Shown here: one piece after another, positions 33,640-64,000 of the stretch | How positions within the stretch are numbered: position 1 is the stretch's first letter | How the letters are laid out: every line of letters begins with the position of its first letter | Source: Xylona heveae TC161 | Lineage: Eukaryota > Ascomycota > Xylonomycetes > Xylonales > Xylonaceae | DNA: 64,000 bases | NCBI RefSeq assembly: GCF_001619985.1 | Contig: NW_017264202.1 | Coordinates: 992,001 to 1,056,000 of the forward strand | Reading direction: 5' to 3' | The notes under the pieces: generated by a model | What the model was told of the DNA's origin: nothing | The model's database searches: none | What the model saw: only the letters and a program-made list of their open reading frames with translations | Translations under genes and position numbers: made by a program

Positions 33640-33640
33640 A
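33584..33640 (+). promoter_or_regulatory. Upstream ORF overlapping the REV3 start (TAATG)
   Basis: An ATG at 33584 opens an 18-codon frame (MALSTSFSPSGVNRLMDV) whose stop TAA shares its last base with the REV3 start ATG, forming TAATG. If the REV3 transcript starts upstream of 33584, most ribosomes would meet this frame first, and REV3 would depend on leaky scanning or reinitiation. A second upstream ATG at 33564 opens an overlapping frame that also stops before REV3. Confidence 0.5.
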
Positions 33641-36600
33641 TGGATTTGTTCCGGGTTCGACTGAATTGCGTGGATCATTATCAGTCTTCACCGACAGAAT
33701 TTGATCCCAACTTTCGCCTCAATGACAGGAATGCTCGATTGAAGGGGTCCCCAAGGGTCCCAGTCATTCGTGTCTTTGGCTCGACAGAGACTGGGCAAAA
33801 AGTTTGCGCTCATGTCCATGGCGCGTTACCATATCTCTACATTCAGTATGAAGGCAGCTTGGTTTCAGAAGATGGTAAGATAAACTATCTCTTTATATGA
33901 GACGCTTCATAGAGGCTTGCATGTCTGATCTCTGGTATTTCGCAGTCAATGCATACATCAATCGCCTCCATTTATCAATTGACCATGCTCTCGCTGTCAC
34001 ATATAGACGCGACCTTTGCGGAGACAACATCACCTTTGTCGCTCACATCACTCTCATCAAAGGAATACCATTCTACGGGTTCCACGTCGGTTATCAATTC
34101 TTTTTCAAGATTTATATGCTTGACCCTGTCTATATGACCCGACTAGCCGACTTGTTGCGCCAAGGAGCTATCATGAAACAAACTTTCCAGCCATTCGAAA
34201 GTCATCTCCAATTCTTGCTACAGTGGATGTGCGACTACAATCTTTACGGCTGTGGGTATATAGACTGCGGTAAAGTAAAATTTCGAAGTCCGGTCCCGAA
34301 GTATGCAGAGCCAGAAGCTTCCAGACACCTCTGGCATACAAAGTCCATTCCGGCAGAAATGTTATCGGATGAGACCATCCATCCACGTCAGAGTCATTGC
34401 GTCTTGGAGGTTGATGTTTGCGCGCAAGATATATTAAATCGCCATGAAATCCAACCAAGACACTTACACCATGATTTTATTGAACGCCTTCGACCGCTTA
34501 GTCCAGATGTAAAGCTGGTTCCAAGCATGGCAGGTTTGTGGAGAGATGAGACACGAAGACGCAAAGCAAAGATGGCAAATGCATCACCTGGAAGCAGCCC
34601 ATTCCCGCCAGAAGTGTTGATCTCAATGTCCGCTGATCCTAGAGATTCGGAGAAAGGAGGCTGGATCCATGAAGACGAGTTTAGGGACCGGGTGAAAGAT
34701 GTTATTCGAAACGAAAAGGCTTCTAATGACCTACCGTCTGTCGGGTTTGACGAATTCGTGCCCAAGTCGGATTTCGAGCAACGGATCGGGACCGCTTTTG
34801 AGAGTGTGGCAGATCTATTTCCGGAGAATTTGCATCCTCTGACGTCCCGCGTTGACAATGATGCAATATCCGTCAGTGATGAGCGAGATCGCACCGTGCA
34901 AGTAGCTGATGTGGATGAGACTCTCATCCGCCAATTTGAGGAGTATATGTCCGATGATTTTGAGGATCATCCGGAAGATGAATTGAGTAATGACGAACAG
35001 CTTGTTGAGGACGTCGAGGGCGAACTCGCGAGCAGGCATAGGAGGTCGGATGATTTGGAACGACAGAAGATTCTTGGGGCAAGTCAACTCGACAAGTCTC
35101 AAAGCCATGATGGAACACTTCAAGCCTCACCTACACGCCTAGACGTTGTCGGTATAAGAGACGTTGATGAGAATCGAGAATTCGACGCCGACCGGTTTGA
35201 TATACCTCTAGATTATACAAGCGACATTAGCACAGCAAACGCTCAGGCGAAACGCACCCGGAGAGAAGGAAGTCAACCCAGGAAGCGCCGTCGAACTTTT
35301 ACCGGCGACGCCCGCATTGATGACAGCGTGCATTCCAATTTGAAACACTTGAACCAAGCCGCAGCCAGTCATCCAGGACATACTCCGTCGATATCCGTTG
35401 TCCGCCCAGGGCTCGCAACGGGCTCCGTAGATCTTCATCATGGTGCTGCACAAAACCCTGATCTACCTCCTCTTCTCTCAAAAGATTCTGCATGTTTACA
35501 AGGGTCTATCAAAGCAATTGATACTAGCCGGGCGGGAACACTGTCATTTCCAGTAGTCAAAGATCCCTTTAATAATGATACCATTCAAAGACTGAGCCAA
35601 CGCAGCGGGACGTCTCAAAAAGGCTCGAAGTCTTATTTCAAGCCTGATCAGTCTGGAAATGAAACAAGCAAAAGCAGCTCGAACAATGAATTTGGAGAGC
35701 TCACGAAGTATGCAACTTCTTCCGATAATACAGATGTGTCTTTGCTTTCTTCAAACGACTTGTCAAGCGCCATGCAAACTTCTTTCGGCCTGGAATCAAA
35801 CCATTCCCTTTACATTTATGCCGTCCCTGCTCCTTCTCGGGATTTTGTATCCAAGACTTTGCCAGATTACGGAATTCCAACAATCATCTATCAAGATGCT
35901 TATTACAGCAATGAAAGAGACGTTCCTGATCGTGTACGAGAGTACGCTGGGAGAGAATTTCGTCTTGAAAGCCACACTGTACCCTTCCTACCCGACTTCA
36001 ACTCGGACGGGCTTAGTTTTAAGAGAAACAATATATCAGCAGATGAAATAAGTGCATGCTCATTGCACAAGAAAATAAAGGCATGTTGCAGTCTCAGAAA
36101 TTGGGAAATTGGAGAGCTCCCCCCAAGCCGGATCGAAGTGGAAAAATGGATGGACACCGAGGACCGGCATACTCAAGAAGTCTTGCCAGAGTCAGATGGT
36201 CGAAAGACCGTGCAAGCAGAGGCTGAGCGGCTTTCCGCCAACAGCAGAATTCCGATTTCCCAAATCGAAGGCCCGACTCAGAAAAATAAGCACGGGTTTA
36301 AGTATTCCCAAAAAATACACAGCTCAAGTGTCCAGCACGAAGCGCAGTACATGAGTACCATGAGCCTCGAGGTTCATGTAAACACAAGGGCTCATCTTCT
36401 ACCAACCCCTGAAATAGACGAAGTGGCCTGCATTTTTTGGTGCATTGATGGCGACGATCAGAATCTTGACAACGAGCACGACAACAACAACAATAAAATT
36501 GGAATAATAGTATTGACGGAGGATGAGGACCGGGCCCGCAAAGTATCGCAGCTAGCTGCTGTACATGTCGATGTGGAATCAACTGAACTCGACCTCATAA

Positions 36601-38995
36601 ACAAGATGGTTGATATAGTCAGAAGCTTTGATCCTGATATCTTGACAGGCTACGAAGTCCATGGGTCCTCATGGGGCTATCTCATCGAGCGCGCGCGACG
36701 CATGTATGATTATAACCTGTGTGACGAATTCTCCCGCATGAGATCCCAGTCACACGGCCGGTTTGGTAAAGAAAATGATCGCTGGGGATTCAATCACACG
36801 TCGACTATCAGGGTTACCGGGAGACACATGATAAATATCTGGCGGGCCATGCGCGGCGAATTGAATCTCTTACAGTATACGATGGAAAATGTTGTCTTCC
36901 ATCTCCTTCAGCGAAGGATCCCTCACTATTCTCACCAGAATCTGTCTGAATGGTACAAAAGTAATCGAGCGATTGATCTTGCGAAAGTTCTGGAGTATTA
37001 TATTGCGAGGGTTCGTTTGGACCTTGCAATTCTCGAAAACAACGAGCTTATTCCAAGGACTAGTGAGCAAGCTCGTCTCCTTGGAGTGGACTTTTTCTCT
37101 GTATTCTCAAGGGGCTCGCAATTCAAAGTCGAGTCGCTCATGTTCCGGATCGCAAAACCTGAGAACTTCCTGCTAATATCACCGAGTCGGAAGCAGGTTG
37201 GCCAACAAAATGCGCTCGAATGTCTTCCTCTTGTAATGGAACCACAAAGTGCATTCTATAACAGCCCACTCTTGGTCTTGGATTTCCAGTCCTTGTACCC
37301 CAGTGTGATGATTGCTTACAATTACTGCTATTCCACTTTCCTCGGCAGGATCGTGAATTGGAGGGGGCAGAACAAGATGGGATTTGCAGACTACCAAAGA
37401 CAGAAACGAATGCTGGAGCTACTGGAAGACCATATAAACAGTGAGTTCCTCTGTCGCCTCTCAGTCATCTTCTTCACTGATATTTGTAGTTGCACCGAAT
37501 GGCATGATGTATGTGAAGCCAGAAATACGTAAATCCCTTCTCGCAAAGATGCTCGGAGAGATCCTTGAGACGAGAGTTATGGTGAAGAGCGGGATGAAGG
37601 TCGATAAGGATGACAAGGTCTTGCAGCGACTTCTCAATAATCGACAACTAGCTTTGAAGCTCATTGCGAACGTGACATATGGCTACACCTCAGCATCCTT
37701 CTCTGGGAGGATGCCGTGCTCCGAGATAGCTGACAGTATCGTGCAAACGGCACGAGAAACCCTGGAAAGGTCAATTGCCTTTATCCATTCCATTGCACGC
37801 TGGGATGCAGAAGTCGTCTACGGTGACACAGACAGCCTGTTCGTTTATCTAAAAGGACGCTCTAAAGATGAAGCATTCCGAATAGGAGAAGAAATTGCAA
37901 AGGAAGTCACCAATATGAATCCGAGACCGATCAAGCTGAAGTTCGAAAAGGTGTACTTTCCTTGCGTGCTTTTGGCCAAGAAACGATATGTCGGTTTCAA
38001 ATTTGAGAGCCCTAAACAAGACCAGCCCGAATTTGATGCAAAGGGTATTGAGACTGTTCGACGCGATGGCACACCTGCTGAGCAAAAAATAGAGGAGAAA
38101 GCTCTCAAGATACTTTTCCGAACCTCTGACTTATCGCAAGTCAAGAACTACTTTCAGCGTCAATGCAGCAAAATAATGAAAGGCAGCATCTCGATCCAGG
38201 ACTTTTGCTTTGCAAGAGAAGTTAAGCTTGGGACCTATAGTGATAGAGGATTACTGCCAGCAGGGGCTCTCATCAGCGCCAAGCGTATGTTAGAAGATCC
38301 TAGAGCAGAACCACAATACGGGGAACGAGTTCCATATGTTGTAATCACTGGGGCACCGGGCGCTCGATTGATTGACCGGTGCGTGCCTCCCGAAACTTTG
38401 CTGTACAATGAGTAAGTACTACCACACTTGTCATTTTGGAGTGGCAACTAACTTTCTCTCGAGGCATAATGAACTAGACGCTGAGTACTATATCTCAAAG
38501 AACATAATCCCTCCGCTTGAGCGAATATTCAACCTTGTCGGAGCAAATGTGCGCTCGTGGTACGATGAGATGCCCAAATTTCAAAGAATTAGACGAATCG
38601 AAAGCGCCGTCACAGGCCTTGGAAAGGATGTCGCTACCTCTGCCATCTCTCGGACTCTCGAATCTTACATGAAGCTCTCAGCATGTTCAGTCTGCAGCAA
38701 GAAGATTGAAGCAGAGCTACCCATATGCACGGAGTGCTTACATCAGGCCAACACGTCGTTGTCTGCTTTGCGTTTTCGAATGTCTGAAGCGGAGAGGAAG
38801 GCTGCGGATTTGGAGAAAATATGCCGGTCTTGTGCAGGCCTAGCATTTGGTGAACCCGTCAAGTGCGACAGCAAAGACTGCCCGGTATTTTACAGCAGGA
38901 CGAGACACATGTCTCATCTGTCTAATATGGTGCGAACAACAAAACCTATGGTGGAACTTCTCGAAGCCCTGGACATCAATCGATATGACTGGTAG
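33640..38995 (+). CDS. REV3: DNA polymerase zeta catalytic subunit
   Basis: The family B polymerase extends DNA past lesions in translesion synthesis together with Rev7 and Rev1. Four exons (33640-33874, 33946-37440, 37490-38411, 38464-38995) give 1,727 residues, normal for filamentous fungi. The N-terminal domain includes VHGALPYLYIQYEG and HHDFIERLRPLSPD. A long disordered centre (residues ~250-800) follows. The inactive exonuclease region has DPDILTGYEVHGSSWGYL. Polymerase motif A is DFQSLYPSVM near residue 1,190, motif B is in LALKLIANVTYGYTSASFSG, and motif C is YGDTDS near residue 1,354. The C-terminus has two Cys clusters, CSVC...CTEC (~1,625) and CRSC...CDSKDC (~1,670), the second of which holds an iron-sulphur cluster in B-family polymerases. 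All key residues appear present. The last intron has an unusual CTCGAG acceptor, but it is the only one keeping the frame. Confidence 0.95.
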
Positions 38996-39997
38996 AAGGC
39001 GTTGACACACTATGATCGCCAATCTCTTTCCCTGTAAACCTCTCGACGACAATGGGTGCTCATGATGACAATACAGGGATACTTTTTGTTTTCTTAATTT
39101 GCAGCTATATACCCTTTGATGAAGTGTTTGGTCTCTCATTACATAGAATTTTGGTCTTTCTCTATTTCTTCTTGATATCAGAAAAAACACTTGATTTTGA
39201 AATTTCAACCAAGACCTTTTTGCAATGCAAGAACTCGTCCTCGCACACACCATCATAATAATTGTGATTTCCTCGATGAATCCTCGCAGGGAACTTCACA
39301 ACGATGATCTCCCATGCTGACAGGAGTATTCTGCCAACAATAATCGCAGTAAACGAAACACCGGTAAAAGGATTCCAGCGGGTATTGGAGAATTTCACAC
39401 AATCATAATCTTACCATCAAATGAGTAGACGGGATCATTAGGTATTGTGCATCTATCTGGGACAGTAAATGATGTGCAGAATAATTTGTGTGTAAACAGT
39501 AGTTATACATAGAGAGCAAGATATACGGAGTATACTCGATAACGGAATACATCTCAAACGTGTGTCAAGAAGCAACGGTCCGTGGTAAATGCATACTTGA
39601 GGTACTCGTCCAACGTTATTCCGCGTGTCCCGTCTGGGGGTGGGACCTCTGGGTGGGATTTACCCGATCGCCGTCGCCCATAGCTCGGATAAGCCCGCAA
39701 TCCCGAGATTTGTACGTAAGTCGAAACGTTCCAAAATGGCAAGAATGACGCCGCAATGGCTTGTTCCTTACGGTGGCCTCAATATGCTTCCAAGGCCCAT
39801 GGTCGAGTTTCACAACAACTGTCTGGCATAGACGTCGGCAGCAATCCCAACCCTATACTTGCCATCCACCTCGAAACCAGTTCATTTCAGTACAGTTTTG
39901 AAACAAAGAAGTTCCACTAATCCGATACTCATTGTATTTCTTGTCTCAAATGGATGTGCGATCCACGTTAGTTGTCTGGTTGACATGACACGTAGAG
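38996..39997. other. Intergenic region, REV3 / NVJ2-like gene
   Basis: This is 1.0 kb between tandem genes. Short frames only; the most AT-rich part lies near 39380-39560. No repeat or RNA gene is seen. Confidence 0.4.
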
Positions 39998-42849
39998 ATG
40001 GGCCCTATTGCCTACTTTCTCGTCGTTTACGCTCTCGGCGGACTGACTTTCTTACCCCTACTCCTTGCAGCTCTTTTTTTGCATGCATATCTTACATTTC
40101 CGATACCTCAGCCGACAAAGGATCAAGAAGACTCTTTGGCGCTTCCCAATGATGATCCAGACGTCTTGACGTCTTCTACGCCCAACCTTGCAGACGAGTT
40201 CAAAGCAAGCCGTCATGAACCTGATGTCGCAGCTGGATATTTTGCCGTCTGCAGAGAATATGTTCCCGGAGGAGTCAATGGAAAGCCTCCTGAGCGCACA
40301 ACGCCGGCTGGAGAAACGGTCGTGGCCGAGAGTCCCAGTGTATATCAGAGCATGTACCGCAGCATCTTCGATCGGAGCAAGACGCCATCCCTAGACGCAG
40401 GAAAAGGAGCCGGAAATGCTTCCAAAAAGGCTAGGAATGTGTTTTTTGTGGTGTTGAGGTGTGCGACTCCTCCAACAGACTAAATGCTTGCAGCAACCGC
40501 TAACGGGTCATTAGGCTAGGCCATTTGATGCTTTATGACGATGCCGAACAACTCGAGGTCCGCCACGTTATTTCACTAGCGCATCATGATGTTAGCATTT
40601 ATGCTGGTGGCAACAAGATACCCGATGGAGAGCTTTGGATTAAACGGAACGCTATATGTCTCACTCGGAAACAAAATGTTGTTGACATGACCTCCCAGTC
40701 AAAACCCTTCTTCTTATTTTCTGAAAACACTTCGGAGAAGGAAGACTTTTACTTTGCACTCCTTCAAAATCAAGAGCGAAGACCTCAGGCGCAGGACAAT
40801 GCTCCCGCCCCACAAAAGTTTGAGGTCAAGCATATCGTGAAGCTAGTCCAGCTGTTGCATTCCTCGGAAGAGCATTTACAAATCAGTTGGTTCAACGCTT
40901 TGATCGGAAGACTCTTCTTGGCTCTCTATAAGACCGCCGAAGTTGAGGACTTTGTCAGAATGAAAATTACCAAGAAAATTGCTCGGGTGAAGAAGCCTAC
41001 ATTTCTTACTGATATCGTCATTCGCAAAATTGAAATGGGGGAGGCCGCGCCATCCATCACCAATCCACGGCTGAAGGAGCTCACGGTGGACGGAGATTGC
41101 TGTATAGGAGCTGATCTCGATTACTCCGGAAATTTCAGACTCGAAATTGAGACAACCGCCCGGATCGATTTGGGTTCGCGCATCAAGCCGAGAGAGGTAA
41201 AGTTGGTGCTGGCATTGGTTTTGAAAAAGCTACAGGGCCATGTCCTCATTCGCTTCAAGCCTCCGCCGAGTAATCGTCTCTGGTTCTCTTTCGAAAGCAT
41301 GCCCAAAATGGAGATGTCTATCGCTCCGGTGGTGAGTTCGCGACAGATCACATACGGATTCATTCTCCGGGCCATTGAAAGCCGCATCAGAGAAGTCTTT
41401 GCGGAGACACTTGTTTTTCCTCATTGGGATGACGCACCATTTACCGATACTTCAAGGCAAAAGTTCCGGGGTGGAATTTGGGCCGACGATCAATCCGTGC
41501 AGGCGCCTGAGACGAAGGTGGACAAAGCCGCAGAAGAGGGCGAAGTGGAAGTCGTGGAAAAGGAAGAACAGGACCCAGCTCAAGAAAAAATCAAAGCTGC
41601 ACTTGGCTCCAAGGAGAAGACGATGAGCATGCCAACTTTGTTCTCTAATGACAGCCAGTCATCCCTCAGTCAAGTTTCATCTTCACGCAAAGCTAGAAAC
41701 GACACATCTTCACCGCTCCCAGAACCCAAAGACGTTGGGGTAAGCTCTGGATCAGAGCCCAGGAGCCCGACACAAAAGCCAAGGGGGATGAGAACACATT
41801 CATTCGCTTCTTCCGCTACGCCGGTTGTTGGAATGGACACAACTACTGTTGACGCGGTCAAGAATGATACCTCAAAGTCCGAGAAGCCGGACGCAACAAG
41901 TGTAATGATAGCTATCAGCAGCCGTTCGCAACCAGGATCGCCAACCGCAACGCCTGTTGGCTCCCCACCAAAATGCACACCTTTGTCGCAGGCCAAGGAC
42001 ATCAGCAGGGCTCTGAACTTTTCCAACATTGATAACGCTGCAAACAATCTTCCCTCCACCGAAAGTACCCAAACAGACTGGGATTCTGGATCCCATCCGC
42101 CCAGCCCGCCCAGCTTTGCCACCACCAGATCCACAAGCATCGCGAGCGAAAGCTCTTTGAAGGAACCCAGTCGCACTCCGTCCATGCGCTCAAACCCTAC
42201 GACGGAGAAACGACAAGCTCTAGCATCAATCGGCTCAGCTACTGCTGCCGCTGCAAAAAAGTGGGGTTGGGGCGTACTTGGCCGCAGCAATGAAAGAAAA
42301 CCCAGTTTCGACGGAGTCGATGAGGGGGAGAAATTGGGCACTCCTGCACACCCGATCGGCCGTGGTCGTCCGCTTCCACCGCCAGGTACACCACTGCCTC
42401 CACCGGACAGAAGATCTTCTACCAATCCTCTTCCCATTCCAAAGCGCAAACCACTTCCGCCGCCTGCACTTCCTCAGCGAAACCAATCCAAATCGAGCGA
42501 TCGGCCTGTTCCACCACCTCCGCTCCCGGCTCGTCAGCTCAAGGGGGATGGGCCTAAAGACACGGGAAATGAAGGGGAGCTTCTTGTGGTAGCTGCTCCA
42601 CTGGACTCCGAGCCGTCTAGCCCTCTGCTTGAAGACCAGGATGAGACCCCGGATACTTTCAAGTTGGATGAGGACCTTGCAGATGGTCAATCGACTAATC
42701 TACGAGATGCTGATTCAACGCGGAGATCATCTGTCGCCACTTCAAACTCATTGGAACGGAAGACGTCATCTAATTCCGATGACACAAAGCTGCAGAAAGA
42801 AGGTGGGTCGACGGACGATGCCCGAACGGAGACAGGCGAGCATACATGA
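39998..42849 (+). CDS. NVJ2: SMP-domain lipid-transfer protein, NVJ2/TEX2-like
   Basis: Two exons (39998-40458, 40515-42849) give 931 residues. An N-terminal membrane anchor (IAYFLVVYALGGLTFLPLLL...) is followed by a PH-like region (residues ~155-260: LGHLMLYDDAEQLEVRHVIS, DGELWIKRNAICLTRKQN) and an SMP lipid-binding domain (residues ~290-485: SWFNALIGRLFLALYKTAEV, PTFLTDIVIRKIEMGEAAPS, RLWFSFESMPKMEMSIAPVV). Yeast Nvj2 sits in the ER at contacts with vacuole and Golgi and moves ceramide. The second half is a long disordered tail with Pro-rich SH3-type ligands (RPLPPPGTPLPPP, PPPPLPARQL). The PH plus SMP order with an N-terminal anchor is specific to Nvj2/TEX2, which separates it from the other SMP proteins. 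Confidence 0.93.
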
Positions 42850-46569: not shown

Positions 46570-49500
46570 ATGTCGTTCGCGAGCTATTCCCCGCCAACTA
46601 CCCGTCATGTCGACATGAGCAAGTAAGCCAATATTTCCTGGGATCCGGTGTCCCAGAGAGTTCTTGTCTTATTTACCCTGGCAGGTCAGAGTCGGATTTG
46701 GCGATTAACATTCGTAAGGCGACGAATATCGGTATGTACAAAAGCTCCCTAACCCCTTTCTTACTGTGGATCGCTCACTAAATTGCTCAATGCGCTGCAG
46801 AGGAGACCGCTCCCAAACGTACGTAAAAAAGCAATTGTCGCACCGTGCCCGATAATCGAGACGCTCACCTGCATACAGGCAAGCATGTGCGAAGCTGCAT
46901 TGTTTATACGTGGGACCATAAATCCTCTCAGTCCTTTTGGGCTGGAATGAAAGTGTGAGCAATCTTGCCAACGGCCGACATGGCCTCTTCCCACCGGGAG
47001 CAATCTTTCTGACAGAAGACCTCTTAGGCAACCTATACTTGCAGACGAGGTTCAGACGTTCAAGGCGCTCATCACTATCCACAAAGTGCTACAAGAAGGC
47101 CACCCGATCACGCTTCGCGAAGCCCAAGCCAACGTCAATTGGCTAGAAAGTTTGACCAGAGGAATCAGCGGAGATGGAATGAGAGGTGCGCTCTTACATC
47201 TACTGTCTGGCATCTTCATCGGGAGAATGTCATAAATGGCGTCGAGATATTGATCTGGCAAACAGGCTACGGACAGCTCATCCGGGAATACATATATTTC
47301 TTGCTGGCTAAGCTCGCTTTTCACCGGCAGCATCCTGAATTCAATGGTATGGTCTATCACACCTGTAGTGACGTTTCCACCATATATCTGATTCTCGACC
47401 AGGAACTTTTGAATACGAGGAATACATCAGTCTCAAAACCATCAATGACCCGAACGAGGGGTAAGCGCCGATCGATGCCCTGTAGCCCTGAATATTCAGC
47501 TGACACAAATGGAGATACGAAACTATATCCGATTTGATGACACTACAGGATCAGATTGACACGTTCCAAAAGCTCGTCTTTTCTCATTTTCGGAGCGGCG
47601 CAAATAATGAGTGTCGAATCTCATCCTTGGTTGGACTGGTGCAGGAAAGCTATGGAATCTATAAATTTATTACTAGCATGCTTCGGGCCATGCACACCAG
47701 TGTGTTTTCCCCTCTACTCTTTTGAAAAGGACTCAACTCATTATTCCCTAGCCACTGGTGAGGATGACGCGCTCGAGCCCCTGCGATCACGGTACAATGC
47801 CCAACACTATAGACTTGTTAAGTTTTACTACGAGTGCTCCAATCTGCGCTATCTCACTAGCTTGATTACCGTACCGAAACTCCCGCAAGATCCACCTAAT
47901 CTTCTGTCCGAGGATGATGAACGGCCAGCTTTACCGCAACGTCCCGCCAAGGAATTGGAGAAAGAGCCCACGCCACCTCCCCCTCGTCCGGCCTCCATTG
48001 ATCCTGAGCCGATCAACGAATTCTGGAAAAATGAGCAGCGACGGCAGCAGGACGAGTATGCAGAAGAGCAACGACGGCTGCAAGAACAGTGGGAGGCTGC
48101 GCAGTATCAACAACAATTGCAGGCACAGCAAGCGCAAAGGGAATTTGAGGAGCAGCAGAGAATCCAAGCAGAGCAACAGCGACTTGCCCAGGAGCAGCTC
48201 ATGCGGGACCAATTTCAGCAACAGACACAGGGTCGGATGGCCGAGCTGGAAAGGGAGAATCTCAATGCCAGGGCCCAGTATGAAAGGGATCAGCTGATGC
48301 TCGAACAATATGACAAGGTCATTCTACTTTTTCCCCGGAAACTCATCGAGTCACTCCAGCTAACGTATACTAACAGCGGCTGAAAGCTTTGGAAACGGAA
48401 CTTGCGCAGCTCAACACAAACTCCCAGCAACAGAATGCTTCCAAGGATGACCACATTAGGGCTCTGCAAGGTCAGTGCATATTACTCTTTTCCGTGTTTC
48501 ATTCTAATTTTCGACAGAGCAAGTGAATACGTGGCGGTCAAAATATGAGGCGCTTGCGAAGCTCTACTCTCAACTACGCCATGAACACCTGGAGCTTCTA
48601 CAAAAGTTCAAGCAAGTCCAGTTGAAAGCATCTTCGGCACAAGAGGCAATTGATCGCCGCGAGAAATTGGAGCGTGAGATTAAAACGAAGAATCTTGAAC
48701 TCGCTGATATGATCCGCGAAAGAGACCGCGCCCTTCACGAAAAGGACAGACTCCAAGGGGTTCGACCCTCCGTACCTTTCCCAGCTCTATACATGATAGC
48801 TTACCTAGATGCAGGGCAACAAAGAAGAATTGGAGAAGCTCAAGCGAGAGCTTCGCTTCGCTCTCGAGAGAGCCGATAATGCCGACCGTGCAAAGGGCTC
48901 CGAGCTTTCTTCCATGCTTGCGAAGTACAACAGAGAGATGGCAGACCTCGAAGAAGCCCTCCGGGTAAGGCTTTCCCTCGCTAATATATCCTGTGATGCT
49001 GATGGTCGAGACAGAACAAAACGCGCGCCCTCGATGACATGCAGGGCAAGGTTGGAGATCGCGATTCAGATCTTGAGCGTACGCTTCGCATGAAGGAAGA
49101 GGAACTCGAGATCTTCAAAGCCGGCATGGATCAGACTCTTTTAGAGTTGAACGACTTGAAGATGGTGGGCATTGCAAAATCACGTCCTGGTCGAAAGAGA
49201 AGCTGACGTCGTGAAGTCCCAACAGCACACAGACCATGCCTTGGATGGGCAAATTGACACGCTGATTTTAGACAACATTCGCAAGATTAACGACATAGTT
49301 GGTAGGTGAAGGAACGGGCCATTACCCCTTTGCGGCAGTAATACTGAAACACGGCGCAGATTCGGTGTTGCAAAGCGGAGTCGAGAGAGTGGACGACGCT
49401 TTATACGAACTCGATTCACCCATGCAGGCTGGCAATCAGAACGCGTCGCCGGCTTATGTCCTGTCTACGATTGAAAAAGCGTCTGCCAGTGCTATGGAAT

Positions 49501-50718: not shown

Positions 50719-53011
50719 TCTGCATCTCCTCGCCTCTATTTGCACTATGAACACTTGTCGTGCATGATTTGCCATACTCTTCAAGCTTGTTTTTCGCGTC
50801 TTTGCGCAAATACCACTCTTCACTATGTACAGAATATTTAATTTCAAGTTAAGTTTGTTAGCAAAGTAAAATTTTTGCCGAAAATGTTTTTCATCAAAGT
50901 GCCTCCTTTTCGTTTACGCGTCTACCCCGTTTACTTGGAGATATTGCGCAAGATCTACATTCTTCTTGTAATCTACATTTTACAACTCTCAACAGCGTCT
51001 GCTCAAACCTCTGTCTCTGCGCCGACTTAGAGGTATATTGTATAGAGACAATTTTTGAGCGCCCGAGGTCAGATCACAAATCTCACTGGCAGAAAAATTC
51101 TCGCCACTGCTATATTCTCCACGCGAAGCCCCATACCTCCCTCTTTCCCTTCCCTATTTAAATTTTTCTTTTGTACTACTTGCATTCTTGGGCCATTTCC
51201 GTATTGAGTTGCAGTCATTTACAGTGATTCGGATAAATAAAATTTTGTGCCTGTCCTGGTCTAACATCAATGTAAATATGTAAATATGGGTAATATCGGG
51301 AGGCATTGTCCCATTCCGAGGTATTCATGCAAATATTCGCCCTACGAATGGGGGGGGAGACGAAGAGATCGGAACTCAACAGAACTAAAGAGATGAACGG
51401 GAGAACCCGGAGCACCATATTAGATTTATATTGATACAAGCATTGTGTCAAATATCGGGACCGGTTTTCCTTTCATTTCCGTACTCAACCGGCACGAATA
51501 GTGATCACGAACAAAGTGTGTTATGGAAAACGATGCTTGGGGAAACGGAAGGGACTTGTGGCCGTGGTGGCTAAGTCGCGTCCATAATAGGAAGGAGGAC
51601 CCCCCAAATCGGGAAGGGCGCTTTAGACACCGCCACCGGAATTTCCTCCCCACATTTTGCTGCCGCGGCAACCTATGGAAAGCCAACGACAACCAACGCA
51701 ACGCGCGACGTCACGGCATGCTTCTGAGCTCCGGCGACATGGCAAAGGTTCTACCTTGTCACTGAAATTGCATTTCCGAGTTGTGCAGAATGAAGGCATT
51801 GAACTAACGCAATGAGATTGCACGAAAAATTGATCTAGGAGGAGATATGCATTTATGGGGAGATTCATCCTTTTTTTGGTATTTTCTCAGTGGACTATCT
51901 AAGCTATGTTGCTAAGTAAAAGCTAGAAAAGACACATCCCTTTAGCTAGAGGGATAGACAACGTTCCAAATTGAAACCGCTGCTTGCGTGTATCTTTTTC
52001 CGTGTACAATTTTGTTGACAAGTGATGGGGCGTTTAATATTCAATCTGAGGCCGCCGTACATGATGTTGATTCAAAGACATTTTTTTTCTGCCGATCTGA
52101 AATATGTAAAACAAAATTCGAGACGATGAGAGAAGATTGCGGGGATGATTAGGGGCACAAAAAAGGAAAAAGACAAAGAAAGAAAAGGGAGATCAATTTG
52201 ATAACGGTCCGAACAGAATCGATGAATATCCATTCCCTTCTTTGTTTTCCCCGACCGAAAATACAATTTTAATGGTGGTCGAGAAGCTGCAAAGTGAGGG
52301 AGCTAAGTGGTTGATTCTCTCGTATGATGTTGACGCTGATGCTTTTGATGTAGAAAAGAAGCAATATTGAACAGACAACTGAATCCATATGAGGGCCTTG
52401 CTAATTTGTGACGTTTCTGCTGAAAGGAAAAAGAAAGGCTTCCTCTTGACCGAGAGACTGAAACATTTATTGGAAAGTCGGTGAAATAAAAAGAACTTCG
52501 CAAAATCCTTATTAGAAATCAGCCCATAATTCTTTGAACAATTTGTATCAGAGATGGTATGCGACGAAAGGTTTTTATGTTTTGTCCCATGAGATATTAG
52601 CGGAAACAGAATACTAATGTCTATATTGACATCCTAGTTTCGAATCAAATATTCATTGAAAGTGTCTCCTCAGCACAAGAGAAATGGAAGGTCTATGTCC
52701 GCATTTCTGCCTTGGTTTTTAGTCTCTTCTCAAGGACAAAAAAGGCTGAAACACGCATTGCGAACCAAATAAAGAGAGGGCGATTGCCAATCACGAATGA
52801 CATAATGAAGCAGTAACTGTGTGTCATGATTGGGTTCCTAGCTCTCTTCGAAAATATTACTGGCGACCTCGATCGTTAGACCAAAGTCGACTTTTATCGA
52901 TGACCAAATGGTGTGGGGTCATGCCCTTCACACTTATCCTTCGTGCAACATTGAGCGGTTCAAGCACGGTGCGTTTTCTCTGGACTAGAGGTCAAGAATC
53001 AGAATCGTTCT
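50719..53011. other. Left mating-type spacer
   Basis: This is 2.3 kb between SLA2 and the small MAT gene. It contains G-runs (about eight G near 51349-51357) and AT-rich sequence. Short frames such as the one at 51426-51701 lack family features. The left edge of the MAT1-2-specific DNA probably lies in here; a comparison with an opposite-mating-type strain would place it. Confidence 0.5.
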
Positions 53012-53638
53012 TTATGTATGTTTCACATGGGGGAATCTCTTACACCACATTTCAATCCCGGTTATTGGAATGCCTATAATGTTCGCAAAGAAAAATATTT
53101 CGGCTATGTTTGGATAGACGCATTCCCTGAAGAATTCCTCCAAAATATGGTTGTGACTGGGGCTCAATCCAAGGGGAGGGCGTAATAGGTTCCGGTCATG
53201 GAGTGCTTTATTGGATTCCCTAGCGGTTGAAATAAGCAGTCGATCGGCAGAGAATAGGGGCAATACTTACTCTGAGAGCAAAGCACGGATTGCAGATCGA
53301 TGAATAGCTATTTGCGATTTATTATCACCAGGCAGATGATGATCATTGGACAGAGCAAGAAGCCAGCTACCACACACGTCGTCTCGCTGGTAAACGCGAT
53401 TGAGTTCCAACAGGCGTTTCACGTCAAGCTTTGACTTCGGTCTCACAGCAAGTGTCCGTTGCAACGTGAATGGCTCGTCAATGAGTTCGTCCCGAGTAAG
53501 CCATCCTTCTCCGGCAAACGTCCTGGGATCGAATCTCCGGTATTTTTTCAAGATAGATCGGAAGTCTTTTATGGGATTCTGATCATTTTTGCGCTTGTTA
53601 TTTGGATGGAAAAAGAAAATTCTCTCTGCTTCGTTCAT
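53012..53638 (-). CDS. Second MAT1-2 gene, homeodomain-like C-terminus (MAT1-2-4 position)
   Basis: Two exons (53638-53271, 53219-53012) flank a 51-nt GTAAGT...CTAG intron and encode 191 residues; an in-frame stop lies 18 bp upstream of the ATG. The first part is basic and polar (RSILKKYRRFDPRTFAGEGW, SKLDVKRLLELNRVYQRDD). The last 50 residues (HILEEFFRECVYPNIAEIFF...GIEMWCKRFP) fit the homeodomain core without gaps: L149, F153, Y158, A168, I173, I178 and W181 have the spacing of homeodomain positions 16, 20, 25, 35, 40, 45 and 48. Positions 49, 51 and 53, normally F, N and R, are C, R and P, so DNA contact would be atypical. The gene lies between SLA2 and MAT1-2-1 and is divergent from the latter, as I recall for A. 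fumigatus MAT1-2-4. Orthology is inferred from position only. Confidence 0.72.
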
Positions 53639-53765
53639 GTCTTCGTGGCAGCCTTATGCCTCTGAGATTACTCGTGGTGATGGCGAATGGTCTGGATCAG
53701 GATTGCAAATGATGAGGAGCTGGTAAATTTATGCCCCTGAGATTTCATGCTATGCAATTTTATAT

Positions 53766-53938
53766 CTATTGACGGTTGTTCGCCAGGTTCTATTGGGTGA
53801 GTCATATGACAATGCTATTGAGGCTGGGTTATTGACAATCCTATTGATGGGCATCTTCAATAAGGACGCCGGCATATGATTGGTCTGGAGTTCCATAAAT
53901 TCACTATTCCCCCCGCCTCCCCCAGTTTATTCTATTGA
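53766..53938 (+). promoter_or_regulatory. Cluster of CTATTGA words
   Basis: Exact CTATTGA occurs at 53766, 53815, 53841 and 53932, with near copies CTATTGG at 53790 and TTATTGA at 53829. The first four main copies are 24-26 bp apart. This looks like a binding-site array, but the factor is unknown. Confidence 0.45.
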
Positions 53939-53943
53939 CGGGG

Positions 53944-53953
53944 GAACAAAGAA
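53944..53953 (-). promoter_or_regulatory. TR-box-like HMG-protein site
   Basis: The minus strand reads TTCTTTGTTC, an exact match to the S. pombe Ste11 TR-box consensus TTCTTTGTTY. It lies 208 bp before the MAT1-2-1 start and 305 bp before the small gene. Confidence 0.5.
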
Positions 53954-54045
53954 CCAGCCCCCGGATTTTGCTTCGCTAGTATTTAACAGCTCAATTCGTC
54001 CGTTCTCAATCTTCAAACTTTCATTGCTCCATTCATCCGTTGCAG

Positions 54046-54116
54046 GTAAGCTTCTCGCAACCTATTATTCTCATGCTTGCTATGAACCTAGTCTGATCAT
54101 CGAATAATATCTACAG
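54046..54116 (+). other. Probable 5' UTR intron of MAT1-2-1
   Basis: GCAG|GTAAGC at 54046 and TCTACAG ending at 54116 delimit a 71-nt stretch in the leader, containing ATGs that splicing would remove. Confidence 0.4.
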
Positions 54117-54161
54117 AGCAGTAGCCTTGACTTGTATTCGAAGTCTAGCTCTGCTTTCACG

Positions 54162-55541
54162 ATGAACAACAACACTACCCTCGCCAATGCCCAGGCGAAT
54201 CCGGCATTCATCCGGCAGCAGAAGCTTGAGCGTCTCTGGCACGCATCTTTGGTTCAGCTCTCTCGTGGACCCGAGATTTCCTTCCCTGCTGAAATACGCC
54301 GATTCATTGGAAACGATGGAATTAGGATTCTAGCAAACAGATACAGGTAAAATTGAACGAGAAATCTTGTTGACGTTCTACTGACATTCTTCAGCGCCTT
54401 GACCGGCAATCAGGCCCAGGTCTTCGAGGATAGGGCAAATAATGCAATTAGAATTTTTATGCCAGAGCCTGAGAATTTGCCACTCCACCCGGCACTTCAA
54501 AATATTCAGGATACTTCCACTTATACCTTGTCGCCCTCTCCCAATTCTGTCGTCATGACCGGACCCGATGGAACGCCGCAGAGACTCGGTCGCCACGGAA
54601 GAGCCGGAAGGGTTCCACGTCCCCCTAATGCTTTTATTCTCTACCGTCGGCATCACCATCCAATTGTCAAGGCTAACAACCCTAACATTTGCAACAATGA
54701 TATTTGTAAGTCCGATTCCGCAATTATCTTTGGGAATTTAATCTCACTTATGTGCTTTTCTTTAGCCATCATTCTTGGTAGCCAGTGGAGATACGAAAAA
54801 CCCGAGATCAAAGCTGAGTTTTTCGCTCTCGCCGACATTCTCAAGTGCAAGCACCACGAGACTCATCCAAATTATCAATATCAGCCACGCAAGGCTTCTG
54901 AGAAGAAACGCCGCATGACACGTCGCAAGGCCGCGGCGCTCAAGAATACTGGCAATTCTGCTGAAGGCGGTCCTGCTCATGCTAGCACCAGTGACCCGAC
55001 CACTACTCCTGTTGTGCCAGTCGCCGACTGCACCCATGAACTGCCGGCTACCATCGCAGACACTCCACCGGAACAAAACGAACACTGGATTTTCCCTGCT
55101 ACTCAGGAGGAATTTGACTCTGCCTTCGTGCAACATTTGGAAATCCTTCGAGAAGTCCCAACCGAAGATCAGCTGGTCCCGGCGTTCAAGGTCAACAAAA
55201 GCGCGAACCTAGAAATCAACTTCCCGCTCGACGAAGAAGCTCTCAATAATTTCCTTCTTGACTGGAACGTCGCCAATGCCTCAGCCCCTCCTCTGTCCGA
55301 CGATGCTTCTCGGATCCAGAGTGTTGCTCCAGCGGCGCTCTCTTCCGTTCTCTCCGAGAGATGCATTGAGGATGAGCAGTTTTTCACGAACACGGCCAGC
55401 TGGGATCAAGTTGAAAGGGATGCTTTGCGTCAAGCCGAAGAACTAGCTAAAGCCTTCAAGTCGGACATGTTTGACGATGGACTGCATCTCGCCGAAGCTC
55501 ATTCTGATTCCGAGTGCAGACGCATGCAGTCGCTCCTTTGA
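54162..55541 (+). CDS. MAT1-2-1: Mating-type HMG-box protein MAT1-2-1
   Basis: This transcription factor sets the MAT1-2 mating type and drives pheromone, receptor and fruiting genes. Three exons (54162-54346, 54395-54705, 54766-55541) give 423 residues. The MATA-type HMG box spans residues ~134-215: RVPRPPNAFILYRRHHHPIV, NNDISIILGSQWRYEKPEIK, HPNYQYQPRKASEKKRRM. The second intron interrupts a Ser codon (residue 166) inside the box, the position conserved in Pezizomycotina MAT1-2-1 genes, which confirms the identity. That intron is 60 nt, stop-free and 3n, so unspliced RNA would add 20 residues within the DNA-binding domain. The C-terminal half is acidic and probably an activation region. The protein is longer than the ~300-330 residues I recall for Aspergillus. 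Presence of this gene and absence of an alpha-box gene mark the strain as MAT1-2. Confidence 0.96.
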
Positions 55542-57513: not shown

Positions 57514-59876
57514 TCACGGGCCAGAGTCGCGGGCGTTCCAGTCACTGCTCCATATAAACGTCTGGCACCGCCATTCCGTCCCCTTCTCCTTGCTTCCAGT
57601 AGGACCGACCGGCCTATCGCAAGAGGAACCATAATCAGCTTATGGAAAGCGAATGCAAGTTTTCACGAACGATGCTCACCTTGGACATATCCAAAACGCA
57701 CGTCCACAATTGAACCCACTTTTCTTGGTTGTTAGTTTTATGCACGGTTCATTGTGACCCTCGCAACGAGGTGCGACGGGCTTGCTGAAAAGCTTTGACC
57801 ATGACTCCTTTGTGACAATTGGATCGACAACCCCCTCGCACTCTTGACTTTCTTTCAATTCCGATTCCGCTGATGGAAGGGACGGTGGGCGGAATGTATT
57901 GCTCTGAGAATCCGTTTTTGATACGTCTTGAGAATCGCCAGTCTTGGTAAACGAAAAACCAGCGCGAAATTGATTAGATTGAACCTTGACGTCGTCAGTG
58001 GACGATGAGGAGCGTTGCAGACTTGATTCAAGCGAGCTGGAAGGCACTGATAAATCATCGGCCTTGGAATCTATTCTACCATTAAGCTGTCCAGAAGATC
58101 TTGGCTTGAAGAAACCCTTCAGGCTCTTTTGACCCCTCTCTGGGCCACTAGCAGCGGACACAGCAGTTGATTTGCTACGTTTAGCTGGCCGCTGAGATTG
58201 ATGTGGCATTTGAGCATCCCTCTTTTCCCCCAGTGTTGAGCCATTAGAGCTGGGAAACTTCAATCTCTCAGGGGACGGTAAATTTGAAGGTTCGGAATTG
58301 GGGGTGAGAGTTTCAGAACCAAGACTATGTAATTCAGCCTCTGGTGTGAGAGCATTCGATGTACGACCAGCTGCAGCATTTGATATGTGCAAAGGTCGAT
58401 CTTGCGAAGTGGGAGTGGTATCTGAACTTGATGCGGCGGTGAGAGACGGCTTTTTCGTAAACATATCTCGAATGCTTCGACGCCGATCAAACTCTGGAAT
58501 CAAGCGACCAGACAAAGCAGGAAGCCATTTTGTGTCATACGAGCGTATTCGTTTTCCAGCTTTGAACACCCCGTTTGGGTTCATCAGATCATATATGTGA
58601 ACTTGCTTTTCACCAACATTGATTTTCTCTTTTATTACTGTATATACTGGACAGTGATCAGATCCCTGCGCCATTAGCCACATTCATGATCATCGCATCT
58701 TTCAGTTCACCTACCAAAAGCCCCTCTTGAATATTGGCATCAGAGATCCAGTCTTTGATGCCTATGCTACAGAGAACATAGTCAATCCTTGAGCCGTAGT
58801 TTGCAGGTCTAGCATTTATCTTTTGTTCCCAGCATGTGAACATTCCTTTGCGCTCTGGGTGGAAGCCGCGACAGGTATCCCATAACATCGGCTGCTCTCT
58901 GCCTTCGTCTCGTTGGCCTAGAACTTTGCCTTCAAACAATAGCTGATTAAAAAGTCGCCTTGTAGGTGTCGAAATGTACTCCTCAGGAGTAAGACCGCTT
59001 TTTCTCATGGTTTCCACCGGATTCGCTGAATCCAGTTCGTCTCGAGACACGTTGAGATCGCCCGCGACGATGACATGCTTGCCAGCTGAGACAAGATTTC
59101 TGACACGCGCATCAAGCGCATTTAAAAATCCTAGACGAAAGTCGTCTCTATTACCTGCGCTATTGGCTGGGCTGTAAACCCCAATTAGAATAAAGGCAGG
59201 AAATTCCAGAACAACACAACGGCCTTCAGAATCTAAGGCGCTAGCATCGACCGGGCAAACAGAGAGCTGAGTAGCCGTCGGATAGCCACCGATTTTTTGA
59301 TCTTCTGGAAGGTCACAGTAACAGGTCGATGAGTTTGGTGGGCACAGAACACCGATAATGCCCTCTTCCGCCTTGATTGGAGCACAAACGCTTTGCCTGG
59401 TATAGATAGCAACGCCGGAATATCCTGCTATAGTCTGAGCCACAAATTTAAAGACAGTTAAAAGGAAAAGGCGTACCTTTCTTATGTTTAGGAAGACTGA
59501 AGTAGCAGTCCCAGCCAGGTACAAGCACCATGTCATCTTTCAAATCTTTCCGTTGAATTTTCAGCTCTTGCATGATCACAATATCCGCTTGGAGGATATC
59601 GAACATAGCCTTAATACGTCAAATTAGAGAGTTAATATCAAGGACACCACTGGAAGAGGGTAGGCATACGGTGAAAGTTCTCTGGTCCCGCCATGGCTGA
59701 TAACTGAATGGATTCCTGGATCAAAGGCAAATTAGAAGGACGCAATTGTTTGAGAAAGGCGATGCGATTGAATTGGGCAACGCACCTGATTCCATTGACT
59801 ATAATAAATTAGCTTCTGATCTATAAGTGAAGTTTGCATTCTGCGTACCATTCCAAGTCGTGATCCTGAGACTCAT
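57514..59876 (-). CDS. APN2: AP endonuclease / DNA lyase 2
   Basis: Apn2 cuts DNA at abasic sites and trims 3' ends in base excision repair. Seven exons (59876-59849, 59798-59786, 59715-59670, 59609-59477, 59427-58715, 58665-57680, 57613-57514) give 672 residues. The exonuclease III domain shows MSLRITTWNVNGIRNPFSYQ, QADIVIMQELKIQRKD, GYSGVAIYTR, VIVAGDLNVSRDELD, SRIDYVLCS and GSDHCPV, so catalytic Asn, Glu, Asp and His are present. A disordered linker carries a likely PCNA-binding KSLKGFFKP. The C-terminal zf-GRF motif is present (CEGHNEPC...GFNCGRAFWICPR), closing with GTEWRCQTFIWSSDW. Exon 2 has only 13 nt. APN2 is the standard right border of the MAT locus. Confidence 0.96.
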
Positions 59877-60293
59877 TGTATTGAGAGCGTTCTGTATCTC
59901 AAACTACATCGCACCTCATATATTTGCAAAATAATTGAAAAAGAACCATGATAAAGAAGAAGCAAAATTAGTTCAAATATTGCAACTCCGATCGCTCTAA
60001 ATGCGCTCAAACGTAAGTAGTCAACAATAATAATCTGAATAGCTCTGAGTGAAACTATTCGCTGACATCATCCCATGTACACAATAGAGACCTGCATCAC
60101 GTGATATAGCCTGCTGAGTCATCCTTCGAATCTCAAAGGAAATCCCTCCAATCTCCACGCCGCCAAACCGAAGCAAATAAGCGAGATGGTACTCGCTCTC
60201 TCGTTCGTCTATACTGGCAAGTGAAAGGAGCTGCACCATCACTTCACCTCATCTCCACCCATAACAGCTCTCATCCGTCAATCGTGGCACATC
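59877..60293. promoter_or_regulatory. Divergent promoter, APN2 / COX13
   Basis: This 417-bp region lies between the divergent starts of a conserved gene pair. No separate element is singled out. Confidence 0.45.
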
Positions 60294-61023
60294 ATGTTTC
60301 CCCAACGCACTCTTCTCCGCGCTTCCCAGCGCGCCGGTCAGCAATTGCGCGCCCCAGTCATGCGCTCGACCATTCAGCGCCGCTTTGAGTCGACCAGCTT
60401 CCGCGGCCCCCAGGACAATGCTTTCAATCGGGAAAGAGCGGCTGTGAAGCAACACGCCGCTCAATCGAGCGGTAAGCGTCCCAATTAGTTTCAATTGGCT
60501 TCTTAAGTCCGTTACATTACGAGAACAATAGCACTGATAGATTTTGCAGAGCTCTGGAGAAAGCTCTCAATCTAGTAAATTCATCCTTAACTCGTCGAAG
60601 ATCTGGATCCAGATGGACTTACCAAAAACAGCGCCACCATTCCCTGCTTGATCATCGCAGGTGTCAATGCTTACAACCTGTGGAACGAGCACTGGGCGCA
60701 CTGGGCGCACGAGCCCCCGCTTGAGGAGCGTACCGAGTACCCGTATCAGAACATGAGAACCAAGAACTTCTTCTGGGGAGACGGTGATAAGGTTAGTACG
60801 CCCGTTCTTTTCGCTCAATTGCTTTAAGCTAACAAATATGATGAATCAGACCCTGTTGTAAGTCAATTGATCCTCCCGAAACATCTTCTTACCTGAAGCG
60901 ATGCCTGTTCACGTATCGAATTTTCGAACTTCCCATTGGACATAATATAAATTGGGTTGCCTCTGCTAATACCTTTGACCAGCTGGAACGACAATGTCAA
61001 CTACCACAAGCGGGACGAGTAGA
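60294..61023 (+). CDS. COX13: Cytochrome c oxidase subunit VIa
   Basis: This is a single-span, nuclear-encoded subunit of respiratory complex IV. Five exons (60294-60471, 60550-60574, 60632-60791, 60850-60857, 60984-61023) give 136 residues. The N-terminus is a mitochondrial presequence (MFPQRTLLRASQRAGQQLRA). The membrane span is in ATIPCLIIAGVNAYNLWNEH, and the conserved end is PYQNMRTKNFFWGDGDKTLF followed by WNDNVNYHKRDE. Exon 4 encodes Thr-Leu and two bases of Phe in 8 nt; without it the conserved GDGDKTLFW motif would be lost, so the microexon is well supported. Confidence 0.95.
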
Positions 61024-61539: not shown

Positions 61540-64000
61540 CTACCGTCCAAGTTCTGGCTGCTTTTTTATAAGCTCCATATATCTGGCAGCAGTCTCTTCA
61601 GCCGAATCTGAGGCACCCAAGAGATGCATAACGGTTGCCTTTTTGGCCACCATTTCGCATTGACCGTTAAGATCCTCTATCTTCGAGTATTCTAAGAAAG
61701 TATCCCATGGTCAGTGCGCAGAATAAACAGAAATGGGGGGTGTTCTCACCATGAATGGAAGCATCAATCAAACTTAGGGAGGTATCCAGGAGAGATTGTT
61801 GTGACAAAGAATGCTTTTCTGTTTCTCCTGCAAGACCAATATATGAATCCACCAGAGATGAGTAGAGTTGCGCGGATAACGCGCAATCCTCCCATTCGAG
61901 CACCTGACAAAAGCAATTTTTAGTTTCCTATTTCTCAAAGAGGAGAGGGAAAAGCTTTGCTAGGTTTACCTGAGGCATAATTCCATCAAGGAGATTTGCA
62001 GTTGCTTGGTATTCCCGTAAGTTTATGAGCACCAGAGCTAAAGCATAGACAGCTTCCCAAAGTCCGGGAAGGATGCGAGCTTGATGAGCAATGCATACTG
62101 CTCTCAAGGCAACAGAAAAGCATTTTTGCGGGACACCACATTTAGCAAAAATAATAGCCTTCAAACTCATCAACCGGACTCGCCAGTAGATATCGGCTCC
62201 CGTATCAGTGAGCTTATCGAACAAGTCCTCTAGAATGTGCAATGCCCTGCTGTAAGAATGACGCCGTATCAGAAGGTCTAGCCTGAGAAGAGATATCGAA
62301 AACGAAACGTCCGGTTCCGGACAGGGTGCCGCGGCTAGTTGATTAAGTAAATGATCCGCCGAATCTAAGTCATTCCTGCACATTTCAGCATAAACATCGC
62401 TTATAATAAGCAAGATCAGACTATTACCGGTGTAACTGGCGCTTGGTCCGAAGAAGGCCCGAAATGGTCGTCCAGTATTGATAGGGTTTCAAGGTATTAA
62501 AAGAGTGCCTTTTAACAGCTTCTAATTGGTTTTCTGCTTCATCATATCGCCCACTCTGAGCGGACTTGAACGGGAGGTCAGCCTCTAGTGTTCCAAAGTC
62601 TAGACGGGACAGAGCTTACTGCGAGGGCTCTTCGACATATACACTTCAGAACCTCTTCGTGAGAGATATTACTTGCATAACAATGAAGCATAATATCACA
62701 CTGAGACAACGACAAGCTCGTTATACCTGAGTTCTAACTTTAGTAGCGAATTAAAATGAAAATCGCATCCGAATTTTACGTACCGAGTCTTCCATAAATC
62801 GAGGACTGCAATAGCATCTGTGAACCAATGGTACTGGTAAGATTCTTCGTTACATTCAAATGAGAAGCTTTAATGACATTCTCTAAAGCCGAAGGTAGGC
62901 TTTCACCCTAATTGTGGATTAGCCAAGTGCACAAGAGGGACTTGAAAGAACACACGGAACGAACATTGTTCAGTAACAGCTTGGTCTCACTGAGAAGGGT
63001 CGTGCTTAATAGACTGAACATTCCCGCCTCTTTTGCTTTAGCCTTGAGGTAGGCTAGGCCTTCCCTTGCGACTCCGAGACCGCTGCCCTTTCCAATAGCG
63101 CTTAATTCATCTGGATGCGCCTTGCTAAAGTGATATAACCAGCTCAGGCTGAAGTTCAAACATCCAACATCTTTATTCTCTCTAGCTGTGGCGATTGTCT
63201 CCTCCATGGCCGCGACAGCTTCACTGTAGCATCCAAAATCTGCCTGAAGAATCGCCAGATTCAACAATGCGTATTGATAAAATGTTCGGTCTCGGTTTTG
63301 CATCGTATAATCAAAGTATCTATGCAGGTGATCAAATGAGGACGGATAGTCACCAGATCTCCACGAGTCAAGGAACCTGAAAAACTTAGTCCAAGATCGT
63401 GATAATTTGACGATATCCTTACTTTACATAATGAGAAAGGCTTGTGACCATCACGCCATTCTTGAGCGCGTCTGAAAGGTGCTGTTTAACTTCCTCGGGG
63501 AGTCGAGTTCCTAGGCCTGTGCTGACCATCAGTGAACTTATCAGGAGCAAGTATAATGATCGCGGTCGATTTACTCTGCATTTCCTCCACTTGGAATTCT
63601 AGAAGCTTTTCAATATCATCTGCACTAACGCACCCTTCAATCATACCCTGCTCAGTCAAACAATTTTCAGAGACATTTGCATCAAAACTCAGACGCTGAA
63701 GGTCATGCTTTGGGTCTGATTGATTAATTCTTAGGTTTCTGTCGTTCCATTCTCTCAATGCAGGCAGGCGATAAGATATGAGTGCTTTCCATAGCATTAC
63801 CGTGTCATGGAATTGAAGCCGAGTGAACTCTATACGCGCGCGTCGAACAAAGGCCCCCAGGGGGGAAGTACGAGAGAGCAAAATGGCACCATCAGGAATC
63901 TCAATGCCTTGTTCATCGTCCGCTACTTGCTCTTCTTTTGATTTGAGTAGCAGCAATCCCAGGTTGTCAAAAAATTCGTGGAGTGCGTCCAACGAATCTA
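61540..64000 (-). CDS. APC5: Anaphase-promoting complex subunit 5, 5' end beyond window
   Basis: Apc5 is a TPR-containing scaffold subunit of the APC/C ubiquitin ligase, which triggers anaphase. The reading frame is already open at the right edge (DALHEFFDNLGLLLLKS, RTSPLGAFVRRARIEFTRLQ), which matches an internal part of fungal Apc5, so roughly the first hundred residues lie outside. Several exons follow, with TPR-like helices (FYQYALLNLAILQADFGCYS, VGCLNFSLSWLYHFSKAHPD, LREYQATANLLDGIMPQ). The last exon ends ATVMHLLGASDSAEETAARY to KKQPELGR at 61540. APC5 commonly follows COX13 next to the MAT locus in Eurotiomycetes. Confidence 0.9.

Follow-up and report, generated by a model that had tools for sequence, protein, structure and literature searches.

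Filamentous ascomycetes are usually described as having HMG and alpha-box mating regulators, homeodomain regulators being known from yeasts and basidiomycetes. The window, which is the whole 64-kb stretch of DNA analysed here, holds a MAT1-2 locus with a second gene beside the HMG gene MAT1-2-1, and the question is what this second gene encodes and what its product may do. The order is SLA2, the second gene (minus strand), MAT1-2-1 (plus strand) and an APN2-like gene, as follows.

47541-48380: SLA2-like frame, with an ANTH domain match
52857-53638, minus strand: likely extent of the second gene, referred to below as the homeodomain gene
53639-54161: intergenic stretch of 523 bp between two divergent start codons
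54162-55541, plus strand: MAT1-2-1, exons 54162-54346, 54395-54705 and 54766-55541, 423 aa, full HMG box (68.9 bits)
58661-59539, minus strand: APN2-like frame, with an Exo_endo_phos match

SLA2 and APN2 were named on the basis of the ANTH and Exo_endo_phos domains and of position. Gene order and the HMG sequence suggest a member of Pezizomycotina, perhaps of Eurotiomycetes or Lecanoromycetes. The homeodomain gene sits between them and adjoins an HMG gene whose box is intact and whose introns are 48 and 60 nt long, as in a MAT1-2 idiomorph. Its start codon and that of MAT1-2-1 are 523 bp apart and face away from each other, and shared control of the two genes is therefore likely, with the intergenic stretch probably serving as their common promoter. 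In the MAT1-2-1 leader, at about 54046-54117 (plus strand), GCAG followed by GTAAGC, with CTACAG at the far end, resembles by eye an intron of the 5' UTR.

A preliminary description of this DNA had read the homeodomain gene as two exons coding for 191 aa. The minus-strand reading was reproduced, with its ATG at 53638, one 51-nt intron (53270-53220) and a stop codon at 53012; this intron was picked by donor and length from 19 frame-keeping single-intron models with GT/GC-AG borders. The gene end at 53012 was not confirmed. Trp48 of the homeodomain (residue 181) is followed by T-GTAAGA, and the first listed acceptor, 59 nt on, gives W-F-Q-R-K-R-T-V-L-E-P. Removal of this second intron (53043-52985), which swaps C-K-R-F-P-H-V-K-H-T for F-Q-R-K-R-T-V-L-E-P and the residues after it, probably joins a third exon (52984-52857). 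The gene is likely to run from 53638 to 52857 on the minus strand, in three exons coding for 223 aa.

53271-53638, minus strand: exon 1, coding for residues 1-122 and part of residue 123; by itself it matches no Pfam family
53220-53270, minus strand: predicted intron 1, 51 nt, GTAAGT...CGCTAG
53044-53219, minus strand: exon 2, which holds the homeodomain through Trp48 and ends with the first base of codon 49
52985-53043, minus strand: predicted intron 2, 59 nt, GTAAGA...CTCTAG, with CTGAT 15 nt before its end
52857-52984, minus strand: predicted exon 3, stop codon included; supplies the rest of helix 3 (F49-Q50-R51-K52-R53) and a tail of 37 residues
52971-53167, minus strand, intron 2 included: homeodomain positions 8-53 (residues 141-186)

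The predicted 223 codons extend over three exons with canonical splice signals and without a stop or frameshift. For comparison, the four introns of SLA2 and MAT1-2-1 are 48, 60, 54 and 85 nt long and three of them have a CTRAY site; such a branch-like site is absent from intron 1 of the homeodomain gene and from intron 2 of MAT1-2-1. A further intron in exon 3 (52860-52690, minus strand) could lengthen the protein to up to 263 aa, with no recognised motif gained.

The gene models were compared with Pfam. The 191-aa protein matched Homeodomain with 15.2 bits (E = 0.02), under the curated cut-off of 22.9, and this was the only family listed at E up to 10. The 223-aa protein matched PF00046 with 26.7 bits (E = 4.9e-6), again the only family listed; because the two-exon protein fails with 15.2 bits, the cut-off is passed only if exon 3 is real. 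A 74-aa piece of the three-exon protein gave E = 1.3e-6 for Homeodomain, and the C-terminal piece also drew a weaker listing of a cytochrome b-c1 family (E = 0.065-0.076). At the same limit of E = 10, the 223-aa protein drew no PF11569 listing. A profile search had been proposed in the preliminary description as a check, and its best family with either gene model was Homeodomain rather than an unrelated one.

The third exon was set against shuffled DNA. When the real donor was fixed and the DNA downstream of it shuffled, 134 of 20,000 shuffles yielded an acceptor scoring at least as well as the real one, and for this reason we regard exon 3 as likely, not proven. F49 and R53 arose together in 830 of the 20,000, with K or R at position 52 too in 108 of those; these shuffles can also create Asn51 ends, which outscore the real end (best 30.0 vs 23.8 bits). 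When all DNA after Trp48 was shuffled and any GTRNG donor within the first 40 nt was allowed, 48 of 20,000 sequences offered a spliced or unspliced end that scored as well. If the gene did end after two exons, its C-terminal segment would lack Asn51 and Arg53 and be broken at Pro53; the protein could not grip DNA and would be a protein partner if anything. We consider this very unlikely: the frame is open to the stop at 53012, its only Pfam match is Homeodomain (E = 0.02) and a suitable third exon does arise in those 134 shuffles, but the two-exon model does not explain why a GTAAGA donor stands in frame right after Trp48 and why the first acceptor brings back F49, Q50, K52 and R53, and the Pfam score about doubles when exon 3 is added (15.2 to 26.7 bits).

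Searches of PDB sequences with phmmer point to the same domain. The 191-aa protein matched six sequences (E = 0.064 to 0.082), each of them DUX4 or DUX4-like. With the C-terminal 100 aa of the three-exon protein, 29 sequences were listed at E up to 10; all 11 below E = 0.1 were homeodomains, with DUX4 best (1e-7), and the other 18 were weaker, two of them being CEP164 entries (E 1.0 and 1.3). MATa1 was not among the 29. The DUX4 match is not read as ancestry, similarity across kingdoms being silent on origin. A home-made HMM, built from 16 homeodomain sequences entered by hand, of which MATa1 alone was checked against the PDB, scored the three-exon C-terminus at 23.0 bits and the two-exon C-terminus at 13.4 bits. 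Across the window, six-frame translation gave 1,662 stop-to-stop segments of 25 aa or longer, and the exon-2 frame ranked first among them by this HMM. The same HMM gave 9.6 bits to a 28-aa frame at 5103-5186 (minus strand), which was set aside as lying within the range of shuffled sequences and having no W-F motif. The residues of the three-exon C-terminus were shuffled 20,000 times (15,954 reported by hmmsearch); the best shuffle reached 10.5 bits, and none reached the score of either gene model.

The structure of exon 2 alone was predicted from the single sequence with AlphaFold2, at low confidence (mean pLDDT 54.5). Helices were placed at residues 20-32, 38-48 and 52-61 of the piece, corresponding to homeodomain positions 10-22, 28-38 and 42-51, which we take to be the places of homeodomain helices 1-3. 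A Foldseek search against the PDB at E up to 10 returned one match, to ATBF1 in its second homeodomain (E = 4; TM 0.52, scaled to query length), and the model of exon 1 was unusable (pLDDT 39.3). The predicted fold may thus be said to support a homeodomain weakly; the three helices asked about in the preliminary description do appear at homeodomain places, but at a pLDDT of 54.5 and for exon 2 only. Of the description's central claim, a homeodomain in the gene adjoining MAT1-2-1, the domain is upheld by Pfam (above the cut-off with exon 3), by the PDB search and weakly by the fold; the 191-aa gene end is no longer favoured. That the resemblance is accidental is barely conceivable, despite a low-confidence fold and no orthologues for comparison: the score lies above the curated Pfam cut-off, 0 of 20,000 residue shuffles matched either model and the significant PDB matches are homeodomains. 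Judged from its sequence, the C-terminal domain is very probably a homeodomain, an identification that we regard as secure.

The residues given in the preliminary description were found where it placed them, with L149, F153, Y158, P159, A168, I173, I178 and W181 at homeodomain positions 16, 20, 25, 26, 35, 40, 45 and 48. Core positions 16, 20, 35, 40, 45, 48 and 49 are L, F, A, I, I, W and F in ungapped spacing. The homeodomain residues Arg5, Asn51 and Arg53 contact DNA and are marks of DNA contact, not of fold; helix 3 usually reads W-F-x-N-x-R, and to our knowledge Asn51 is almost invariant. In the present protein position 5 is Pro and position 51 is Arg in both gene models, so that R53 alone of the three is present, and that in the three-exon model. 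The description's replacement of Asn51 by Arg holds in both models, but its replacement of Arg53 by Pro would not survive the predicted splicing; Pro53 is probably intron read as protein, because the GTAAGA donor and exon 3 restore Arg53. Its further proposal, that DNA contact has been lost and the protein acts as a partner of MAT1-2-1, may hold.

Homeodomains of the TALE, MATalpha2 and HD1 class are longer by three residues between helix 1 and helix 2. The present domain aligns with typical 60-residue homeodomains without a gap through helices 1-3, and therefore has the length of the MATa1/HD2 class; the alpha2/TALE class was rejected, as there is no insertion between helices 1 and 2. On the alignment, assignment to the typical length class appears clear. 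We compared 17 homeodomains ungapped, with the domains located by W-[FV]-x-N; since this finder required Asn51, its presence in 17 of 17 is no independent census. By identity DUX4 came first (17/46), MATa1 second (16/46) and Msx1 had 14/46, and by BLOSUM62 the scores were 76 for DUX4, 61 for Msx1, 53 for Nkx2.5 and 52 each for MATa1, Hesx1, Otx2 and Gsc. In 5,000 shuffles per homeodomain, 16 of the 17 BLOSUM62 scores were never reached and that of Antp was reached once. BLASTP against MATa1 (S. cerevisiae a1) gave 16/47 identical residues without gaps (E = 6e-6 for the single comparison). The animal homeodomains DUX4, Msx1 and Hesx1, of the typical class, match without a gap through helices 1-3 and keep Asn51. 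The gene might instead go back to a cellular homeodomain, of separate origin from the ancestral mating-type ones, that was captured by the MAT locus and gained a sexual role there, and MATa1 is indeed not closest by substitution score (DUX4, Msx1 and Nkx2.5 exceed its 52). We hold capture to be unlikely; the divergent order of HMG and homeodomain genes is that of yeast MATa, by identity MATa1 ranks second among the 17, and the scores of the animal proteins likewise say nothing about origin.

Codon usage bears on whether the gene is still in use. The spliced frame had a codon bias of 0.057 bits per codon, the highest of the six frames (-0.039 and -0.030 for the other sense frames; 0.003, -0.053 and -0.028 antisense), and among 2,000 stretches, each 672 nt long and taken from either strand of 50750-52850, 5 reached this value. 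The bias of MAT1-2-1 was 0.140 bits per codon. Decay of a former mating-type homeodomain gene, with frames still open, DNA-contact residues lost and no present function, would account for the absence of Asn51 and Arg5 and for a codon bias weaker than that of MAT1-2-1. It fits poorly with three exons bearing canonical splice signals, an uninterrupted 223-codon frame and a helix 3 that is otherwise kept, and we regard it as quite unlikely.

We favour, at a probability of roughly 60%, a three-exon MAT1-2 auxiliary gene whose 223-aa protein has a C-terminal homeodomain of typical length and acts as a partner-aided co-regulator of sex with altered DNA binding. Its N-terminal half, which has no assigned family, would precede a homeodomain of the MATa1/HD2 length class, and by divergent transcription across the 523 bp the homeodomain gene and MAT1-2-1 would probably be switched on together. 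The domain as predicted keeps the hydrophobic core, Trp48, Phe49, Gln50, Lys52 and Arg53, with Arg for Asn51 and Pro for Arg5, and its DNA binding is probably weak or of altered specificity. Partner-dependent recognition of DNA is proposed because the protein has lost Asn51 and Arg5 but kept Trp48, Phe49, Lys52 and Arg53. With MAT1-2-1 or some other factor as its partner, the protein may regulate sexual development, as yeast a1 does with alpha2; we know of no alpha2-type partner in Pezizomycotina MAT1-1. The Asn51 exchange would offer a natural test of a mating-type homeodomain working with reduced DNA contact.

Homeodomain genes had been thought in the preliminary description to be missing from Pezizomycotina MAT loci, which does not agree with a published lichen-fungus match. 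According to the accessible part of Pizarro et al. 2019 (PMC6414310), all MAT1-2 lichen fungi studied but Graphis scripta carry an extra gene placed between MAT1-2 and APN2; in some of them, with Cetraria islandica, C. commixta and Umbilicaria pustulata named, this auxiliary gene has a homeodomain leucine-zipper match (pfam11569), and that of Xanthoria parietina clusters with Aspergillus MAT1-2-4. With this match in print, a homeodomain beside MAT1-2-1 is not wholly new. Among the open-licence PMC texts searched (main texts, largely partial), none other than PMC6414310 was found to state a homeodomain in a Pezizomycotina MAT1-2 gene, and for Chaetothyriales MAT loci no open-licence PMC text was found. 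In Letharia the Lecanoromycete gene is named MAT1-2-14, and the portion available of PMC10512270 reports that no homologue was found outside Lecanoromycetes. As far as these partial texts describe it, MAT1-2-14 resembles the present gene, by description only, in being an additional gene of the MAT1-2 idiomorph and in having a homeodomain-type match; it differs in lying between MAT1-2-1 and APN2 rather than between SLA2 and MAT1-2-1, and in matching pfam11569 rather than PF00046.

The MAT1-2-4 gene of A. fumigatus and A. lentulus is likewise comparable by description only, as a MAT1-2 auxiliary gene of similar size with short introns. In the accessible sections of PMC3697472, the MAT1-2-4 product of A. 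lentulus is 242 aa long and its gene has introns of 46, 46 and 58 bp, three against two in the present gene; the origin of MAT1-2-4 is called obscure (section 14) and no homeodomain is mentioned. MAT1-2-4 is required for mating in A. fumigatus according to excerpts of citing papers (PMC6562746, PMC9714929), and a putative homologue is given for A. niger in the part seen of PMC8454179. We suggest from these parallels that the present gene fits the company of auxiliary genes of the MAT1-2-4 and MAT1-2-14 type, a little-studied kind of which it would be a variant.

Yeast MATa loci resemble the present locus in gene order and domain type. In Zygosaccharomyces, as given in the available portions of PMC4065246 and PMC4827841, MATa1 (an HD2-class homeodomain gene) and MATa2 (HMG) point in opposite directions 279 bp apart. 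The present locus shares with this arrangement divergent homeodomain and HMG genes, a short gap (523 bp here), SLA2 alongside and a PF00046-type domain, but MATa1 keeps Asn51 where the present gene has Arg. The MAT1-2 idiomorphs of filamentous ascomycetes may conceivably retain the ancestral MATa homeodomain gene, with perhaps MAT1-2-4 and MAT1-2-14 too as diverged, partner-acting orthologues of MATa1, an idea that we put forward tentatively and with more doubt than belief. If true, such orthologues would have been overlooked because the intron between Trp48 and Phe49 hides the helix-3 motif and Asn51 is exchanged, and published gene models are predicted possibly to overlook an intron within helix 3. 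Obscure MAT1-2 genes such as MAT1-2-4 would gain a possible identity and ancestry from a homeodomain gene that is divergently transcribed from the HMG gene.

Relatives of the 223-aa protein were also sought by pattern in two collections not meant for fungi, giving 3 matches in viral_contigs and 46 in genome_contigs, none confirmed by tblastn. Beyond APN2 in the window, frames at 60225-60830 (plus strand) and 61928-63998 (minus strand) resemble by eye COX13 (cytochrome c oxidase VIa) and APC5; if so named, they would make the order SLA2-MAT-APN2-COX13-APC5. Upstream of SLA2, 31727-42846 holds SLU7 (minus strand), a family B DNA polymerase resembling REV3 (plus strand) and a protein whose domains are of PH and MMM1 type (plus strand). 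Further upstream, a 737-aa frame at 11386-13596 (minus strand) has a weak match to a Myb-like DNA-binding domain, at 21.6 bits, under the Pfam cut-off of 24.4.
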